A stretch of DNA of 64,000 nucleotides, taken from the NCBI GenBank assembly GCA_028289425.1, contig JANQPL010000009.1:186001-250000 (forward strand), written 5' to 3'. Origin of the DNA: Alphaproteobacteria bacterium. GTDB taxonomy: Bacteria; Pseudomonadota; Alphaproteobacteria; JANQMY01. Position 1 is the first letter of the stretch. Every line of letters starts with the position of its first letter. Below are positions 481-8,617 of this stretch, one piece after another. The notes under the pieces were generated by a model, which saw nothing but the letters and a program-made list of their open reading frames with translations, was not told the DNA's origin and did no database searches. Both the position numbers and the translations under genes were made by a program.

Positions 481-582
481 AACCAAGTCGAACAATCAAA
501 TCTACAACATCGACCGACCTCGTTTGAGGTCCATTCCTGGTTGATTCACGCCGGAGGCATACCCCCCAGGTATAACCCAAAG

Positions 583-612
583 TTGAACCAGGTCTTAAAA
601 TCCGACTAATAT
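583..612 (+). promoter_or_regulatory. Predicted sigma70 promoter of the TIR-NACHT operon
   Basis: TTGAAC (583-588) and TAATAT (607-612) are separated by 18 bp, about 50 bp upstream of the TTG start at 665. This is the best promoter match between 480 and 665 and would drive the three-gene cassette. No operator palindrome was seen nearby. Confidence 0.45.
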
Positions 613-664
613 GTAAGGCATTTTGTGCGTAGGGTGAGAAATCAGAACTGGGGGTCGCGGGGCC

Positions 665-3600
665 TTGAGTGTTCGAGACCGGTACGACGGCTTTATAAGC
701 ATTCGGCAGGGGGCCGAACCCGTCTGCTATGAGTTAAAGACTTTGCTGGCGCAGCGGGATCTTTCTACCGCCTGGCAGGAGAACATAAATGAGTTCAGTT
801 CGCGCTCGCACATGGATGGTGTCCAGCAGATCATTCGCAACACCCATTTTTCGATTGTATTGATTACGCCAAATCTTTTCGATCCCCCATCTAACCAAAG
901 CCAGTGCCATCAGAAAGATGAACTGATTGCTATCAGTGAACGATTGTCTCGCGTTACCCATGAATCCGACGAAGCCGGTCGACTGAAATACAGTGTCTTC
1001 CTCGCCTTGTTACAGGATGAGCAGGGCTTTCCCCGTCACAGCGACTTGGTCACCAGCATCCAAGACGATAAGAAGATCAACTGGATAAGGGACGCTACGA
1101 ATTGGTGTGCCATTCCCAATTTTGAAGACGTTTCCGATCGTGAACGAAATGAGGCGATCGAGAAGCTCGTCGGCGATGTCTATCTTTGGGCAACCCGGCA
1201 AAGCGATATCGATTTTGGTTCTCGCGGAACGCGCTCAACTACAAACGGAACGTTGTCGTCCGCCAATGACGCAGACGCCGATAGCCAGCCAGAAATGCCG
1301 AATGGAACCGGGTCGCCGTCTGACGAACCGGACGAGCTTAGCGCGTTGGGCCAGCTGCAAAAATCCGAACGCGCTTATTTGGAGCGGGGGGCGCGGCTTT
1401 GGCATCGGGGACGCATCGACCGTGTCGAAGACGTTGCATTGGATGAAAGCCCTCTCGGTGCTGATGAATCTCCGTTTTCGTTCGACCCACAACGATTTAT
1501 CGAGCTGTTTGCACAGTCCGACCATTCGGCTGCCCCGACTCTCGCGACAAATGCAATGCCGGTTTCTGAGTTTTTCCTCCACGCGTGGGACCGACCGCTT
1601 ATCCTCCAGGGTGACGCCGGTGTCGGCAAGTCGACGACCGCCGCGGCGGTTGCTCTTGCGATGGCATCCACATGGGATGACGCATTCGCCGGATTTAGCG
1701 GCCGGCTTGCAAACGGCGCTTGGCTCAAAAATGCGGTCCCTCGGATTAATAGAGGTTCGCAGTGGTTTCCAGTCCTCACCCGTTGCAGTTGGGCGTCCAA
1801 ATTCTTTGTCGACGGCAGTCCCGATGTGGATCGTCTGCTTGATATTGTTACGATGGTCATCTTGGGAACGGACGAGATTCCCTCGCCGGATGCGCGTGAG
1901 GATTTGCGTGAACGCATGTCCAACCAACCGTACGCGCTTTTGTTCGATGGGTTGGACGAAGTTGAAGATTCTCGGCAAGGCATGGCGCTTGTCAATTCGG
2001 CGGTTGACCTATGGAATGAGATCAATCGGGGCGATCAAAAACTACGGGTGATGATTCTTACGCGAGAATTCAAACGAAACATCGCCGATGTCGACAAGGC
2101 CTCACTCAAACAACTTAGTTGGAACCAAATCTCAAACTTCCTGTCGTCCTACGCATTGTCGGCGGGCGAACAACAAAACGAAGCCATACAAGGACATATT
2201 TTTCGCGATGCGGAAGAGTTGTGGCGCGACGGGGGTGTCAACGCGGATCCGCTTAAAACGCCCTTGCTGTTAAACGCGTTCTGCTGGATGGAGATCAATA
2301 GAGGAAGTTTCAAAGGTAATCGCACCGAGTTCTGCCGCAACGTCATAGACTTTTTGGCAGCCAACCGAAAAATTGTCGCGCGGTCAGGCGAAGTTTTGAC
2401 CAGCGAGAAAGTACGCAAACTTCTTCAAAGATTGGCGTATGACGCAACCAGTTCGGATCTCGGTCGCGGCATTCTGACGGCGGACGATGCCGAGCAAGTG
2501 GTTGAAAGCTGGGGGCGGTCGGTGATCGACCACCATCTGTCGGGCGAGCAATGCCGGGCGATCCTGCAGCAAGTCAGCCATCAGACGGGCCTCTTCTATC
2601 GAATGAGGTCTAGTGACGGATCATCATATTACTCATTCGAGAAACGAGAATTGTTCCGTGAATACCTTGCGGGCGAGCGAATGGCGGAAGGCGGGCTCAC
2701 CCACCAAACAATTCGCCAACTTAGGGCGACGCCGGAAAAACTACAGCAATGGGAGCCTGCGATCGGCTTTGCCGCGGCGATGCGGTCGACGGACACCGAC
2801 GTCCACACGGCAATGAAATTGCCCAATTCCCTTCTGGATTCCGCACAAGCAAGCGATGCGTCGTCGGAAGCCTATTTGTGGTCGTCTGCCGCGCTGACCA
2901 CCCTTGTGGAAAGCGCGCGACGACTCGAGCTCCCCGACTTTAGTTCGTACATTGATAAAATACTGTTAGTGTACGGAAAGAACAAATCTCAATGGACCCC
3001 ATTGGAACGCAGTCGGTTTGCCGAACGGATGTTTTTATTGGCGCGCAAAACGAACGCGAAGATATCCACCAAAATCGCCAATCACCTGTTGGACAGATTC
3101 CTGGTCGGCTCGTCACAATGGCTGCCGCTGAAACAGAAGCCGAGCCTGTCGATTGCACGTACGCCGGTTTTGGTTTTTGAGTACCGGCAATTTCTGGAGG
3201 ACAACCCGTCCAGCAAGCAGTACTGGACCCATGCGCGTCTGCCGGAAGAGAAACACCTCATTACAGAAACACAAAGCCCCTCTGACAGCAGCCTGCCGGA
3301 GCCGGACGGCAGCGCGCGAGAGCATTGGACAAGCTCTGATCAATGGAACCGGCAGATGGATCACCCGGGCAATCCCATCGTTTTTGTTACCTGGTTTGAA
3401 GCGGTGGCCTACTGTGCTTGGAAAACCCACTCCATGAGAGAAAGCGGCGAACTTGATCCGGATGAAGTCGTGCGATTGCCGACGGCAGACGAATGGATGT
3501 CGGTTGTCGGCTTTGCATCAGACGGAGACCGATATCCGTGGGGCAACACGAGCCTGCGGGTGGGCACACCGTCTCAAGCCGTTGTGAATTCGTATCATTC

Positions 3601-3871
3601 CGGGATTAATGGATCGTCTGTACCCGGCGTGTTTGATCCCTACGGCTTGGACGGTTTGTATGACTTCGGTTCAAATGTACGCTGCTGGCTGGCAAACGAC
3701 ACCGCCCTGTCGGATCGGATTGACGAGGACGAGGATGTGCCCACGGCCGGCGGTTCGTGGGCAGACTTCGAAGTTTCTTTGTTTCGCTCGAATACGGAGC
3801 CGCGGCTGGAAGACCCGTTAGCGCGTCGCGTCTTTCTTGGCTTTAGGGTGGTGAGAGAGCGTCTGTCGTGA
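665..3871 (+). CDS. TIR-NACHT-FGE multidomain protein (NLR-like conflict/defence protein)
   Basis: 1068 residues, TTG start. Residues 1-175 resemble a TIR domain: a first strand DRYDGFISI, and an S-x-C-x4-E-L stretch (S79, C81, E86) matching the TIR NADase active site with E86 as candidate catalytic Glu. An acidic linker follows. Residues 310-560 form a NACHT-type STAND NTPase with Walker A GDAGVGKST (316-324), Walker B LLFDGLDEVED (425-435) and an ILTRE sensor strand near 464. After a helical middle part, residues about 827-1068 form an FGE-sulfatase/C-type-lectin-like domain (FVTWFEAVAYCAW, RLPTADEW, YPWGN, GGSW, GFRVV). The end of that domain lacks the paired cysteines of active formylglycine-generating enzymes, so it is probably a ligand-binding module. 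It is the first gene of a cassette whose partners start 45 bp after this stop. Inferred role: NTPase-gated immune effector, with TIR as the toxic domain and FGE as sensor. Domain calls are from motifs only; the TIR is divergent. Confidence 0.8.
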   Translation: MSVRDRYDGFISIRQGAEPVCYELKTLLAQRDLSTAWQENINEFSSRSHMDGVQQIIRNTHFSIVLITPNLFDPPSNQSQCHQKDELIAISERLSRVTHESDEAGRLKYSVFLALLQDEQGFPRHSDLVTSIQDDKKINWIRDATNWCAIPNFEDVSDRERNEAIEKLVGDVYLWATRQSDIDFGSRGTRSTTNGTLSSANDADADSQPEMPNGTGSPSDEPDELSALGQLQKSERAYLERGARLWHRGRIDRVEDVALDESPLGADESPFSFDPQRFIELFAQSDHSAAPTLATNAMPVSEFFLHAWDRPLILQGDAGVGKSTTAAAVALAMASTWDDAFAGFSGRLANGAWLKNAVPRINRGSQWFPVLTRCSWASKFFVDGSPDVDRLLDIVTMVILGTDEIPSPDAREDLRERMSNQPYALLFDGLDEVEDSRQGMALVNSAVDLWNEINRGDQKLRVMILTREFKRNIADVDKASLKQLSWNQISNFLSSYALSAGEQQNEAIQGHIFRDAEELWRDGGVNADPLKTPLLLNAFCWMEINRGSFKGNRTEFCRNVIDFLAANRKIVARSGEVLTSEKVRKLLQRLAYDATSSDLGRGILTADDAEQVVESWGRSVIDHHLSGEQCRAILQQVSHQTGLFYRMRSSDGSSYYSFEKRELFREYLAGERMAEGGLTHQTIRQLRATPEKLQQWEPAIGFAAAMRSTDTDVHTAMKLPNSLLDSAQASDASSEAYLWSSAALTTLVESARRLELPDFSSYIDKILLVYGKNKSQWTPLERSRFAERMFLLARKTNAKISTKIANHLLDRFLVGSSQWLPLKQKPSLSIARTPVLVFEYRQFLEDNPSSKQYWTHARLPEEKHLITETQSPSDSSLPEPDGSAREHWTSSDQWNRQMDHPGNPIVFVTWFEAVAYCAWKTHSMRESGELDPDEVVRLPTADEWMSVVGFASDGDRYPWGNTSLRVGTPSQAVVNSYHSGINGSSVPGVFDPYGLDGLYDFGSNVRCWLANDTALSDRIDEDEDVPTAGGSWADFEVSLFRSNTEPRLEDPLARRVFLGFRVVRERLS

Positions 3872-3916
3872 CGTCAAGCAACATAATCATCAATATGCAA
3901 AAAGTGGATTTGATCT

Positions 3917-5161
3917 ATGGCAACGGCCAACAACGGGGTTCAGTCGCGAACGCTCCAAGCGGTTTTAGAGCATGCAAAAGAACGTGTCAGTGTGCATTGG
4001 CGGGTTCTTGAAGACGAATTGGATGACGAAACGGACTGGGATCCGTATTTCGTCTCAGAACGTCAGCTAAATCGTCTTTCCAAAGAACTGCGGGAGCAAT
4101 TGTCGCTGTTGCAAGCCGTGGATTGGACCGGTTTTGAACATTGGACCGTGAAGAGAAAAAAAGAGGCCTTTGGGGAAATCCTCGAAGAAATGGCGAACAC
4201 GGGCACCGAGTTATACGGTGCTCTGATGACCGGCTTGCAGGGTGATCGGCAGTCCGAAGAGGATTCGAAGGTGTTTCGAGATTGGTTTGAGGAAACCGTC
4301 CTGCCGGCAGACGAAGGCAGCTGGCGTATTCAGATCATCCATACCAACTACTCAAAAGAAATCGTTCCATGGGGCCTGGTGTTCACGCCACGCTTGCCGG
4401 ATGACGACGATCGATCACCGACGTTTGAGAACTACAAGAACTTTTGGTGTTCGTGTTTCCGCCTTGCCTGCCGAGGCACGTTCTTGGAAGAAGCCGATGA
4501 GATCGAAGACAGGCGTGACGGCGACCTGACCAAAGTTGCCGTCGTCATCGAACGCGACGTGGATCAGTTCGATTCTTTCGAAAGGACACGCGCACGCAAG
4601 CCCGACCGCGATCGAGATCTCCGACGTGACTACATTGCCCATGACAAAAGAGAATTTCGCAGGTTGGCCTTCAATCAAAAGAAGAATGATGTCTTTTGGT
4701 ATATTTCGCTCAAATCGGACGGCGGGGCTTATTCGCTCGGGGGGCAGACTCTCGGCCATCAAGAAATCAGCAGTTCCTACGAACAGGTAAACGAAGATCG
4801 TATCATCATTATGCTGATTGATGGGGATGCCGTTATCCGCAATGACCGAGGGTCTCAATGGGTGGAATCGGCGCTAGAGATCGGACGGGCCGGGTTGATC
4901 GCCGTTGAAACCGACATTCAGAACCCGCAATTGCGATACTTCGGCTGGTTACTTTTGAAGTCTCTCATCAAGTCGCTATCGAAGAACCCGCTCATTGATG
5001 CGATGCAGGAAGCGCGCCGGGAGTTCTGGCCTCACAGTCTGCTCTATGGTGTTTATTGCAACCCACTGCATTTTTACCTTCACGACCGGCCTGACGACAT
5101 CATCGACTTCATTGACCGTTTTTTGGAGATCCCGTCCGTGCCTGCCGATGAATCCGACTAA
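3917..5161 (+). CDS. CHAT-like protein with degenerate catalytic site
   Basis: 414 residues. The first 130 residues are helical and charged with no recognised domain. From about residue 138 the layout matches the CHAT (caspase HetF-associated) fold: IIHTN then VPWGL (150-154, the family's PWEL signature), a strand at 258-264, a second strand at 295-301, WVESALEIGRAGLIAV (315-330), and the typical tail with an ALxxAR-like helix and a LLYGVYCNPL strand (376-385). The position that should carry the catalytic His-Gly reads FWYISLKSDGG, and the one that should carry NAC reads IMLIDGD, so the His-Cys dyad appears to be missing. It is probably a non-proteolytic scaffold or a binding partner of the two NTPases encoded on either side. 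The fold call is tentative; function is unknown. Confidence 0.55.
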   Translation: MATANNGVQSRTLQAVLEHAKERVSVHWRVLEDELDDETDWDPYFVSERQLNRLSKELREQLSLLQAVDWTGFEHWTVKRKKEAFGEILEEMANTGTELYGALMTGLQGDRQSEEDSKVFRDWFEETVLPADEGSWRIQIIHTNYSKEIVPWGLVFTPRLPDDDDRSPTFENYKNFWCSCFRLACRGTFLEEADEIEDRRDGDLTKVAVVIERDVDQFDSFERTRARKPDRDRDLRRDYIAHDKREFRRLAFNQKKNDVFWYISLKSDGGAYSLGGQTLGHQEISSSYEQVNEDRIIIMLIDGDAVIRNDRGSQWVESALEIGRAGLIAVETDIQNPQLRYFGWLLLKSLIKSLSKNPLIDAMQEARREFWPHSLLYGVYCNPLHFYLHDRPDDIIDFIDRFLEIPSVPADESD

Positions 5162-5210
5162 CACGAATTATTGGACCTAACCTAACAAATCGACCGGAAG
5201 TCTAATCACG

Positions 5211-8200
5211 ATGGCTGAGACCTCGTTACCCAAGAAGACCTCGCCGAAAAAGCGGCCAGCGTCGAAACGACCGAAACCGAAATCCAAAACCAAAGAAAGC
5301 CAAAGCAAGCCGACGCCCAGCGAGCCGGCACCGCATGCGGATCGAACTCCCGGTTATGAATCTTCTCCCTATCCGGGTCTGCAGTACTACCAAGAAGAAC
5401 AGGGCGATATTTTCGCCGGACGTGACATCGAGATTGCGAAATGTGCGCGCCTGCTTGTGAAATCGAGAGTTCTGGTTCTGCACGGCACGTCCGGGTGCGG
5501 AAAGTCGAGTTTTCTGCGGGCCGGTGTCAAACCGTACCTAGCCCGCGCCCGGCTTCCAATTTCGTTTGAGGAAAATCCGGATGGATTTCAGGTTATCCGC
5601 TCGACCGACAAACCCCTTCGGCAGTTCGCAACCCGCCTGTTGGAAGTCGTGGATGATTTGGCGGCGGGCAAGTCTTCCTATGGCCGGCTCAGGCGATCCG
5701 TCGACGCACACGAACTACAAGAAAAGTTCACCTCGGAAGAGCGACGGGAGCTCATCGGTACCGATTCTGATGCGGCATTCGAGGCCTTGGTAGATGTCGC
5801 CGGTGCCATGAGAACGGCGCCGGTTTTCGTGATTGATCAGGCCGAAGAAGTGTTCACATTGAGGGAACGTTTGGAGCACGACGACACATCGAACGCCGAG
5901 GAAAAGGACGCCGAACAAGAAATCGAAACCGCTGCATTCTTTAGGTTCCTAAACGAGGTCGCCCAAAGGGGGGCAAAGAGCCGAATTATTATCTCTCTGC
6001 GGACGGAGTATAAGGGGCGATTTGACGATCAGGTGTCGGCACATGGCCATCCCGGCGATGGCCTGCGCGGCTTTTACTTGAGTGAGTTGACCCATGAGGG
6101 ACTTAAGCACGCGATAACGCGCCCCACGCTGGAAGGTGCCGAGTGGGAAAAGGTGAAGAAGCGCAAACATGTTAAAGACAAGTCTTCCCCCTTCGAGCGC
6201 TTCCGATTTCGCATCGACGATGATGTGGTCGAACGCCTTGCTTCGGATCTCCTCAGCGAGCGGGTGCCCGCGGGCGGCATACTGCCTGCCCTGCAGATTG
6301 CCTGCCTGCAGCTATGGCGCCAATCGGAAGACGCCCGGTCCACCAAAGAGGAAAGCACCGGCAGGGCGCTGCGCATACGCATGCTGAACTATCGCCGGTT
6401 AGGAAAGATAGAAACGCAAGTCGAAGAGTATTTGGCCCAATCGCTTGAAGAGGTTGTTCTGCAGTCTTCTCGGTGGTCGCTTCGAATATCCGAAGTGGTC
6501 GAGAAATGGCACCAGGCATTTCGAAAAATTTTGGTCAGCGTTGAAGCCGACGGACGGGCAGTGACTCGGCGCCCACCGGAATCCGAATTGGTGAGCGAAC
6601 TTGTGGACTTTTTTGGTGCGAACAAGTCACTCGAAGCCGATATCCGGAAGATCATCGGCGAACTCAGCTCGAGCCGCTTCGGCATCCTTCGCAGAGAGCA
6701 AGACCGCATCACGTTGGGGCACGATAGCCTGGCGCTGGCCCTAAACAAATGGTGGATGGTCTTCAATCGCGAAGAGAACGCCATGATGCGTATGAGCATG
6801 GGATCCTACAAATCGCCGGATGAGATCGAAGCAACCGATCTATTTTTGAAAGGCGAGGAACCGCACGCATCAACGATTTACATGCCGGCAGAGCTGGGCT
6901 GGGACAGTCAGCTGCCTCATTTCGCGAGTATTCGCGGATTTGATAAGCGGCTCGGCATTACATTGCAGATCGGTGAAACAGACGATGCGTCAAACCTGAG
7001 CACCGTCTCGGGAGAGAACCGGCCAAAAGACTGGAACCAGTTGCGACGGCGCCTCTGGTCGCGGGAAAACGACCGCCGCGAGCAGGTCGACGCAACAAAA
7101 GACAAAGGCAAATCGCTTACAAATACCTACTTCTTGGCGCCGACCGAATGGGCGAGTTTCCCAGGCCGAGAAAGCAGCGGCGTGTCCAACAATGAACGCA
7201 CGCGCCATGCGCTCCGTTGGACCGATGTGCTCGTGACCGATCTGTTCGTTGGCAATGGACTTATTGGGTTGGAGCAAAAATGGTCGGAAGAAATGGTCAA
7301 AGTTCATGCGCTTCCGGCGAGCGACCAACCCGAACGCCTGCGCGAGGTCATTTCAGGGGCGCTCACCGAAATCTGTGAGAGGCGCGGCGAAGTAAAGTGC
7401 TTCAAGGACAGCGCGCGCAAATTCTTGCTTTTCGCGGCGGACATTTGCGAAGTCGCCCCAAAGGTCAAAAGGTACCTGTCGAGCGAAAAAAATGTATCGA
7501 TTGACGAAGGCACCTATTCCCAGCGGCGAAATCCGATGCTGACGTGGCTGTTGGAAAATGAGAACGCGGAAGAAGACGCCGCCTCCGTTCGTCCTCGCTA
7601 TATTGTATCGTCGTCATTGCCCCGAGCTTTGGCGGTGCAGTCAGGATATACGGTTTATTTTGGTGCGAACGATCTTGCGTCCCTTGCGCGGGATGAAATG
7701 TCGGGCCGGCAAGCCAATCAAAAAAAGCGTGTGACAGCCATTGATGATGTGGCAGATCGCATGCAGTCGGTTGTTCAGCACACGTTGTGGCAGGTAAGCG
7801 TGCCGTCCGCAAAGTGGAACAGCGGGTTGAACCGAGCTTTCATTTTGCGGCTCGCCGGTCTTGGATACTTTACGGCCGAATATGTGCGTTCAAACTCTGA
7901 TGAGTTTGTGCTGCACCTTCATGAATTCATGAACCGTGTCTTTGGGGAAGCCGGCGGTGGGCGCGATAGCGTCAAAGGTGTTCGGTTGAACCGGCAGATC
8001 ATTCGAGACACCTTCCAGAGCTGCTTCAACTTCCTGAAGTTCGAGGAATATGGCCATGAGATTTATGATCTCGACTCGCCGTTCGCCTATCGGACCGATC
8101 ATGCGTCGCTAGATACGCAAAGCATTGCCGACGAGATTTATATCGAACTTACGGATCTTCGGCGGAAAACATTGGCGCATTTTCATCGTGTGGCAGACAG

Positions 8201-8399
8201 CATTCGCTGGCTAAAGGATCGGGACGATTACGATCCATTGGAAAAAGCCGTACGGGATTTCTTCAAGCTTAAGCAGCTCGCCTGGAACAATTACAGGATT
8301 TTCAACTATTACGATTCCGAACGGTACATGGCACGCGCTGCCGCGGCTGCTCAAATTCTTATGGAGAAAAAAACCCACAATTCGGACGATACCGCCTAA
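5211..8399 (+). CDS. nSTAND-family NTPase with unassigned C-terminal region
   Basis: 1062 residues. Residues 1-45 are a disordered Lys/Pro/Ser-rich tail. Then PYPGLQYY and IFAGRD introduce an nSTAND1-type NTPase: Walker A GTSGCGKSS (92-100), Walker B VFVIDQAEEVF (about 203-213) and IIISLRTEYKGRFD (about 263-276), all in the usual order. Helical bundles follow to about residue 520, ending in LGHDSLALALNKWW, typical of the family's winged-helix end. The last 540 residues match nothing I recognise and have no evident TPR, WD40 or LRR repeats. It lies 49 bp after the CHAT-like gene, same strand, with a GGAAG ribosome site. STAND ATPases act as ligand-gated oligomerising switches, so this is probably a sensor or amplifier working with the TIR-NACHT protein. 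NTPase call firm; role inferred. Confidence 0.8.
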   Translation: MAETSLPKKTSPKKRPASKRPKPKSKTKESQSKPTPSEPAPHADRTPGYESSPYPGLQYYQEEQGDIFAGRDIEIAKCARLLVKSRVLVLHGTSGCGKSSFLRAGVKPYLARARLPISFEENPDGFQVIRSTDKPLRQFATRLLEVVDDLAAGKSSYGRLRRSVDAHELQEKFTSEERRELIGTDSDAAFEALVDVAGAMRTAPVFVIDQAEEVFTLRERLEHDDTSNAEEKDAEQEIETAAFFRFLNEVAQRGAKSRIIISLRTEYKGRFDDQVSAHGHPGDGLRGFYLSELTHEGLKHAITRPTLEGAEWEKVKKRKHVKDKSSPFERFRFRIDDDVVERLASDLLSERVPAGGILPALQIACLQLWRQSEDARSTKEESTGRALRIRMLNYRRLGKIETQVEEYLAQSLEEVVLQSSRWSLRISEVVEKWHQAFRKILVSVEADGRAVTRRPPESELVSELVDFFGANKSLEADIRKIIGELSSSRFGILRREQDRITLGHDSLALALNKWWMVFNREENAMMRMSMGSYKSPDEIEATDLFLKGEEPHASTIYMPAELGWDSQLPHFASIRGFDKRLGITLQIGETDDASNLSTVSGENRPKDWNQLRRRLWSRENDRREQVDATKDKGKSLTNTYFLAPTEWASFPGRESSGVSNNERTRHALRWTDVLVTDLFVGNGLIGLEQKWSEEMVKVHALPASDQPERLREVISGALTEICERRGEVKCFKDSARKFLLFAADICEVAPKVKRYLSSEKNVSIDEGTYSQRRNPMLTWLLENENAEEDAASVRPRYIVSSSLPRALAVQSGYTVYFGANDLASLARDEMSGRQANQKKRVTAIDDVADRMQSVVQHTLWQVSVPSAKWNSGLNRAFILRLAGLGYFTAEYVRSNSDEFVLHLHEFMNRVFGEAGGGRDSVKGVRLNRQIIRDTFQSCFNFLKFEEYGHEIYDLDSPFAYRTDHASLDTQSIADEIYIELTDLRRKTLAHFHRVADSIRWLKDRDDYDPLEKAVRDFFKLKQLAWNNYRIFNYYDSERYMARAAAAAQILMEKKTHNSDDTA

Positions 8400-8540: not shown

Positions 8541-8617
8541 TGGTACCGCCTCCCCGGTTCGAACGGGGGACCTCTAGATCCACAATCTAGCGCTCTAACC
8601 AACTGAGCTAAGGCGGC
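8541..8617 (-). tRNA. tRNA-His (anticodon GTG), CCA encoded
   Basis: The minus strand folds into a full cloverleaf: acceptor stem GCCGCCT/AGGCGGT, D-arm, anticodon stem TAGA/TCTA with loop TTGTGGA (anticodon GTG), variable region GAGGT, and T-arm CCCCG-TTCGAAC-CGGGG, followed by A73 and an encoded CCA. G1 pairs with U72 and the discriminator is A73 rather than C73, the pattern known for alphaproteobacterial tRNA-His that does not rely on G-1. Its 3' end faces the accessory cassette, and a copy of that end occurs at 454-480. Confidence 0.97.

Follow-up and report, generated by a model that had tools for sequence, protein, structure and literature searches.

Inactive Peptidases in NTPase-Based Conflict Systems

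Bacterial immune proteins with a caspase fold are generally taken to be effectors that act by cleavage. In Craspase, the CHAT protein TPR-CHAT (Csx29) is an active, CRISPR-linked protease that is controlled by a separate sensor. Other peptidases occur in STAND NTPase-FGS systems, in which NACHT or nSTAND1 NTPases are found with effectors of the TIR, caspase or trypsin type (Kaur et al., 2021, PMC8195603), and in 2024 targets of diversity-generating retroelements were reported with nSTAND1, NACHT, TIR and CHAT domains (PMC10907252). In the VMAP ternary systems described in 2020, the peptidase domains that are fused to the vWA component in the effector position are inactive in about 70% of the caspase and nearly all of the trypsin cases, and a role as dominant-negative regulators or in peptide binding has been proposed for them (PMC7159879). 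Peptidases without activity have therefore been described in NTPase conflict systems before, at least for the systems covered by these sources, and the apparently inactive stand-alone CHAT-like protein in a STAND operon that is described here is a variant of them.

The Operon and Its Surroundings

The window, i.e., the whole stretch of 64,000 nucleotides that was analysed, contains a run of three genes on the forward strand, with intergenic gaps of 45 and 49 bases, and a tRNA gene directly downstream of it:

665–3871, forward strand: P0003, 1068 aa, with a TIR-like region, a NACHT-type NTPase and a C-terminal FGS domain
3917–5161, forward strand: P0001, 414 aa, degenerate CHAT-like protein, assigned by homology to P0004 and by HMM and hhalign comparison with CHAT proteins
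5211–8399, forward strand: P0002, 1062 aa, nSTAND1 NTPase (PF20703, 1e-35)
8541–8617, strand opposite to the operon: tRNA-His gene

The first-pass annotation had placed P0001 between two STAND NTPases, which agrees with the identity of its neighbours, a NACHT/FGS protein and an nSTAND1 protein. Coding on the opposite strand of the P0001 gene was considered and rejected, as several stops are present there.

Like the STAND NTPase-FGS systems in Kaur et al. (2021, PMC8195603), the operon has a NACHT and an nSTAND1 NTPase, an FGS lectin-like domain and a putative TIR-type effector, the latter recognised by motif. It differs from those described there in that a separate gene for an apparently dead CHAT protein lies between the genes of the two NTPases. 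With the VMAP ternary systems (PMC7159879) it shares the retention of a peptidase without catalytic residues in an NTPase conflict system. However, the caspase and trypsin domains described in that source are fused to vWA, whereas P0001 is a separate, stand-alone CHAT-like protein in a STAND operon from which MoxR-vWA genes are absent. As in Craspase, a CHAT protein occurs with a separate sensor, but P0001, unlike the active TPR-CHAT protease, has no sequence match to any PDB chain. The literature passages that were covered do not mention a dead CHAT protein encoded on its own between two STAND genes, a weak negative as most subscription papers fall outside this scope.

In P0003, the FGS domain is recognised above the cut-off (PF03781, 8.1e-19), while the NACHT match (2.6e-4, 21.3 bits) stays below the Pfam cut-off of 26.7. 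The NTPase contains a Walker A motif, GDAGVGKS, at aa 316 and a Walker B motif, ALLFDGLDE, at aa 424. The TIR-like region (aa 1–190) has a KDEL87-type Glu motif and a sub-threshold match to CAP12-PCTIR_TIR (E 0.16); its AlphaFold model, built with few relatives, reaches a pLDDT of 32. Formylglycine-generating enzymes, whose fold the FGS domain has, carry an active-site Cys pair after a GGS motif. The only Cys residues in the FGS domain of P0003 are at 917 and 1007 and none follows its GGS motif, so that this domain is more likely a binding domain than an enzyme, as judged from its sequence. P0002 has an nSTAND1 NTPase at aa 53–509 with intact Walker A and B motifs, while a profile search with aa 520–1062 returned no known family.

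The synonymous codon preference of the operon is weak, with scores of 0.03–0.07 vs 0.225 in one neighbouring core gene, a contrast that is somewhat inflated as the core gene itself belongs to the codon reference set. This would fit a horizontal acquisition of the operon before the split of the two species in which it is found, the source organism and a congener. The congener, a metagenome-assembled genome labelled Alphaproteobacteria bacterium PL25b_bin.64 (JANQMY010000610), contains all three operon genes, with identities of 86% for P0003, 90% for the first 237 codons of P0001 and 93% for P0002. The DNA similarity spans window positions 581 to 8381, except for an assembly gap at P0001 codons 238–414. 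A mobile cassette inserted at unrelated sites was rejected: in the congener, the flanking DNA from the tRNA-His side is found on the operon's own contig, about 8.7 kb past the operon, indicating a shared neighbourhood that has been interrupted by an insertion or deletion. Part of the roughly 8.7 kb of other DNA between the operon and the tRNA-His-side region in the congener resembles other places of the source genome.

Kinship of P0001 to the CHAT Superfamily

P0001 consists of an N-terminal helical region (approximately aa 37–130) and a CHAT-like domain (approximately aa 135–390). The open reading frame and the four motifs quoted in the first-pass annotation, VPWGL, SLKSDGG, IMLIDGD and LLYGVYCNPL, were all recovered where they had been reported. 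The features of the domain, all on the forward strand, are:

4364–4378, forward strand: VPWGL motif, aa 150–154, conserved with CHAT relatives in the alignment
4709–4714, forward strand: Leu265/Lys266 at the column of the catalytic His, within SLKSDGG (aa 264–270); which of the two occupies it depends on a one-residue shift
4826–4828, forward strand: Asp304 at the column of the catalytic Cys, the last residue of IMLIDGD (aa 298–304), with IDGD in place of INGC or INAC
5039–5068, forward strand: LLYGVYCNPL, aa 375–384, C-terminal CHAT block, from the alignment and hhalign

Recognisable relatives of P0001 are rare, being limited to the congener and one other genome, Lysobacteraceae bacterium SCN 69-320 (MEFP01000012), which encodes P0004, a protein of 377 aa carrying the CHAT motifs YIGH and FINGC. 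Searches of viral contigs, phages and plasmids returned no relative of P0001 or P0004, and a scan of the genome contigs with a sequence pattern, admittedly a poor one, returned only the two known loci. A weak match in a further genome (G620, E 0.0015) was rejected as a chance hit within a sensor-kinase gene.

The CHAT-like character of P0001 proved to be above chance in several comparisons. BLASTP aligns P0001 with P0004 at 2e-11, and three segments of P0001 each match their P0004 counterpart above shuffled sequences: the N-terminal helical region (z 9.8) and the CHAT-like domain, both in its first half (z 7.7) and in its catalytic half (z 6.7). P0004 in turn matches P0007, from another genome of its family, at 6e-10, and P0007 is recognised by Pfam as a CHAT protein (42.7 bits, cut-off 24). 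An HMM built from 14 CHAT domains, with P0001 left out, gives P0001 19.3 bits, compared to a top score of 9.4 among 2000 shuffled copies; when P0004 is left out as well, the scores are 14.8 and 8.9. Finally, hhalign of P0001 against eight CHAT proteins yields a probability of 93.8 and an E-value of 1.8e-7 over the C-terminal block. P0001 shares the order of blocks with the PF12770 subgroup defined by VPW..., YFYCH, F(I/L)N(A/G)C and a C-terminal L(L/A)Y...C block. It has the PW, the strands of the dyad and a C-terminal GLIAxE...LLYGVYC, and its N-terminal helical region is shared with P0004. Unlike these CHAT proteins, it has Leu or Lys for the catalytic His and Asp for the Cys, and the Pfam model does not recognise it.

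It is very unlikely that P0001 is not a CHAT protein and that the resemblance is local. Such a reading could be based on the profile searches, in which P0001 matched no Pfam model (even at E 10) and no NCBIfam or PADLOC model, and on the PDB sequence search, in which no chain matched P0001 and searches with the CHAT profile or the TIR region gave chance matches only. In addition, the AlphaFold model of P0001, made with the Lysobacteraceae homologue and few relatives, has a pLDDT of 34.9 and a pTM of 0.27. The low confidence of this model and of that of the TIR-like region is attributed to the small number of relatives; for P0001, the alignment rows of P0001 and P0004 were split for AlphaFold because MAFFT misaligned the His segment. 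Against a merely local resemblance stand the independent segment matches to P0004, which is linked to the Pfam-recognised P0007, and the HMM and hhalign results. Since the profile libraries do not recognise P0001, its kinship to CHAT rests on the Lysobacteraceae homologue. Taken across the domain, the homology identifies P0001 as what appears to be a very divergent descendant of the CHAT superfamily, rather than as a demonstrated protease.

Loss of the His-Cys Dyad

When P0001 is aligned jointly with its relatives, 13 of the 14 relatives have His in the His column, where P0001 has Lys266 (Leu265 with the one-residue shift), and all 14 relatives have Cys in the column where P0001 has Asp304. 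The catalytic motif, a hydrophobic residue followed by N-[AGS]-C, is replaced by IDGD. Because the flanks align strand for strand within the same strands, FWYISLKSDG with FHYIGHHHDG and IMLIDGD with LLFINGC, the double loss is not an artefact of the alignment. The catalytic columns, together with the Pfam domains on either side, thus support the earlier proposal of a CHAT-like protein that lies between two STAND NTPases and has lost its dyad. Homologues with intact His and Cys, which the first-pass annotation would have held against this proposal, do exist; however, they do not overturn it, since they fix the alignment columns and make the loss specific to the P0001 lineage.

P0001 could still be an enzyme if its active site has been relocated, with Cys178 or Cys185 acting together with His142 or His281, or if acid or metal chemistry takes place at Asp302-Gly-Asp304, where the position of the Cys has become an Asp inside a DGD triplet. 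The only Cys residues of P0001 are 178, 180, 185 and 381, no His is present between 242 and 281, and none lies within 15 residues of the His column on either side. Although the congener retains Cys178 and Cys185, a new or relocated site is improbable: Cys180 is Ser in the congener, none of the aligned relatives carries His or Cys where the site would have moved to, and the AlphaFold model lends it no structural support.

Selection on P0001

Compared with the congener, codons 1–237 of P0001 have a dN/dS of 0.042 (NG86) to 0.074 (YN00) with a dS of approximately 0.8–1.3, values that apply to these codons only, as both catalytic positions fall in the gap between congener contigs. The neighbouring domains give 0.036–0.040 (nSTAND1) and 0.041–0.052 (NACHT) with a dS near 1, and the other parts of P0003 give 0.09–0.11 (FGS) and 0.11–0.13 (TIR-like). 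These values point to strong purifying selection on codons 1–237 of P0001, which exclude the catalytic half.

A decaying gene, i.e., a recently inactivated protease that is drifting, is the least probable of the readings considered. Both catalytic residues are gone and the comparison with the congener covers codons 1–237 only, which would leave room for decay in the remainder. The open reading frame is nevertheless full-length, the low dN/dS of codons 1–237 is found at a considerable dS, and in the C-terminal half the C-terminal CHAT block is kept and the G+C content by codon position (0.56/0.35/0.62) matches that of the neighbours, which is a normal coding pattern.

A Presumably Active Relative Next to an nSTAND1 Gene

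In the Lysobacteraceae genome (locus L012), the P0004 gene lies directly upstream of an nSTAND1 gene, P0005, with an overlap of 4 nt. The arrangement is like that in the window: the CHAT gene directly precedes the nSTAND1 gene, and both proteins are homologous to their counterparts. The Lysobacteraceae locus differs in its intact dyad, the absence of a TIR-NACHT-FGS gene and the other C-terminal half of its nSTAND1 protein, and it contains an unrelated third gene (P0006) that is absent from the window operon. The NTPase domains of P0002 and P0005 are 28% identical (1e-37), whereas their C-terminal halves do not match each other. As the nSTAND1 proteins are homologous over the NTPase but not beyond, the shared unit appears to be CHAT plus nSTAND1, and because the intact P0004 adjoins an NTPase homologous to that of P0002, the pair would be old and the dead version derived. 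The protease activity of P0004 is presumably the output of the Lysobacteraceae pair. The C-terminal half of P0002 (window 6768–8396, approximately 540 aa) differs entirely from that of P0005 and is probably an exchangeable sensor part.

Possible Roles of P0001

With about an even chance of being correct, P0001 may be a pseudo-protease that a three-gene STAND operon of immune type has kept as an adaptor, binding a protein or peptide but not acting as an enzyme. A binding adaptor rather than an enzyme is probable as both catalytic residues are lost while the gene is kept in the operon, and the adaptor is further favoured by the purifying selection, by the fact that the non-catalytic parts match independently, and by the pairing with nSTAND1, which is conserved. 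In the mechanism that we infer, P0003 and P0002 would serve as sensor and oligomerisation switches in defence. P0001 would dock on nSTAND1 via the helical part at its N-terminus, presumably in the same way as its active relative, and could use the emptied CHAT cleft to hold either a peptide or the partner NTPase. The simplest account would be that an ancestral CHAT protease formed a pair with nSTAND1 and turned into an adaptor once the TIR-NACHT-FGS gene had joined, keeping the docking role and losing the enzymatic one, while the enzymatic output moved to the TIR-like domain of P0003.

Tentatively, this could be taken further: P0001 might be a dedicated coupler of the nSTAND1 and NACHT switches that moved activation from a protease to a TIR output. 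If so, it would be a prokaryotic dead caspase-fold scaffold with a logic like that of animal inactive caspase homologues and MALT1-type scaffolding.

It is unlikely, by comparison with the adaptor, that P0001 is an inhibitor, a dominant-negative subunit or a decoy, standing in for an active protease, occupying its substrate, or baiting a phage protein that is aimed at CHAT proteases. Roles of this kind have been proposed in general for the inactive effector domains of VMAP systems (PMC7159879). However, the source genome has one other PF12770 match only, an HTH-CHAT protein unlike P0001 with an intact dyad, so that poisoning of a CHAT paralogue is little supported and no paralogue to poison is evident. 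The gene of this HTH-CHAT protein (L024:7124–8221) adjoins a transposase-like open reading frame.

The presumed adaptor also bears on annotation, as a similarity-based label such as "CHAT protease" can mislead on mechanism and profile libraries overlook such members. A dead P0001 between NTPase switches and a living relative beside a like NTPase would allow a direct comparison of a non-proteolytic CHAT role.

Other CHAT Loci

A second, partial loss of the dyad occurs in WP_330242430, encoded on a plasmid of Streptomyces sp. NBC_00525 (L035:1417–5457), in which an NB-ARC-type NTPase is fused to a CHAT domain with the His replaced (LLYVFSQAYS) and the Cys kept. A hydrolase-like gene recurs behind CHAT genes of the P0007 type at three loci (L039, L035 and L010), possibly as a linked effector pair. 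The partner is annotated as an alpha/beta fold hydrolase in the Microvirga and Streptomyces plasmids and is an unannotated open reading frame of 443 aa in a further genome (G930). On the Microvirga ossetica plasmid, a protein annotated as belonging to the thiol-activated cytolysin family (L039:174–1709) is encoded approximately 1.4 kb upstream of a CHAT-like gene.
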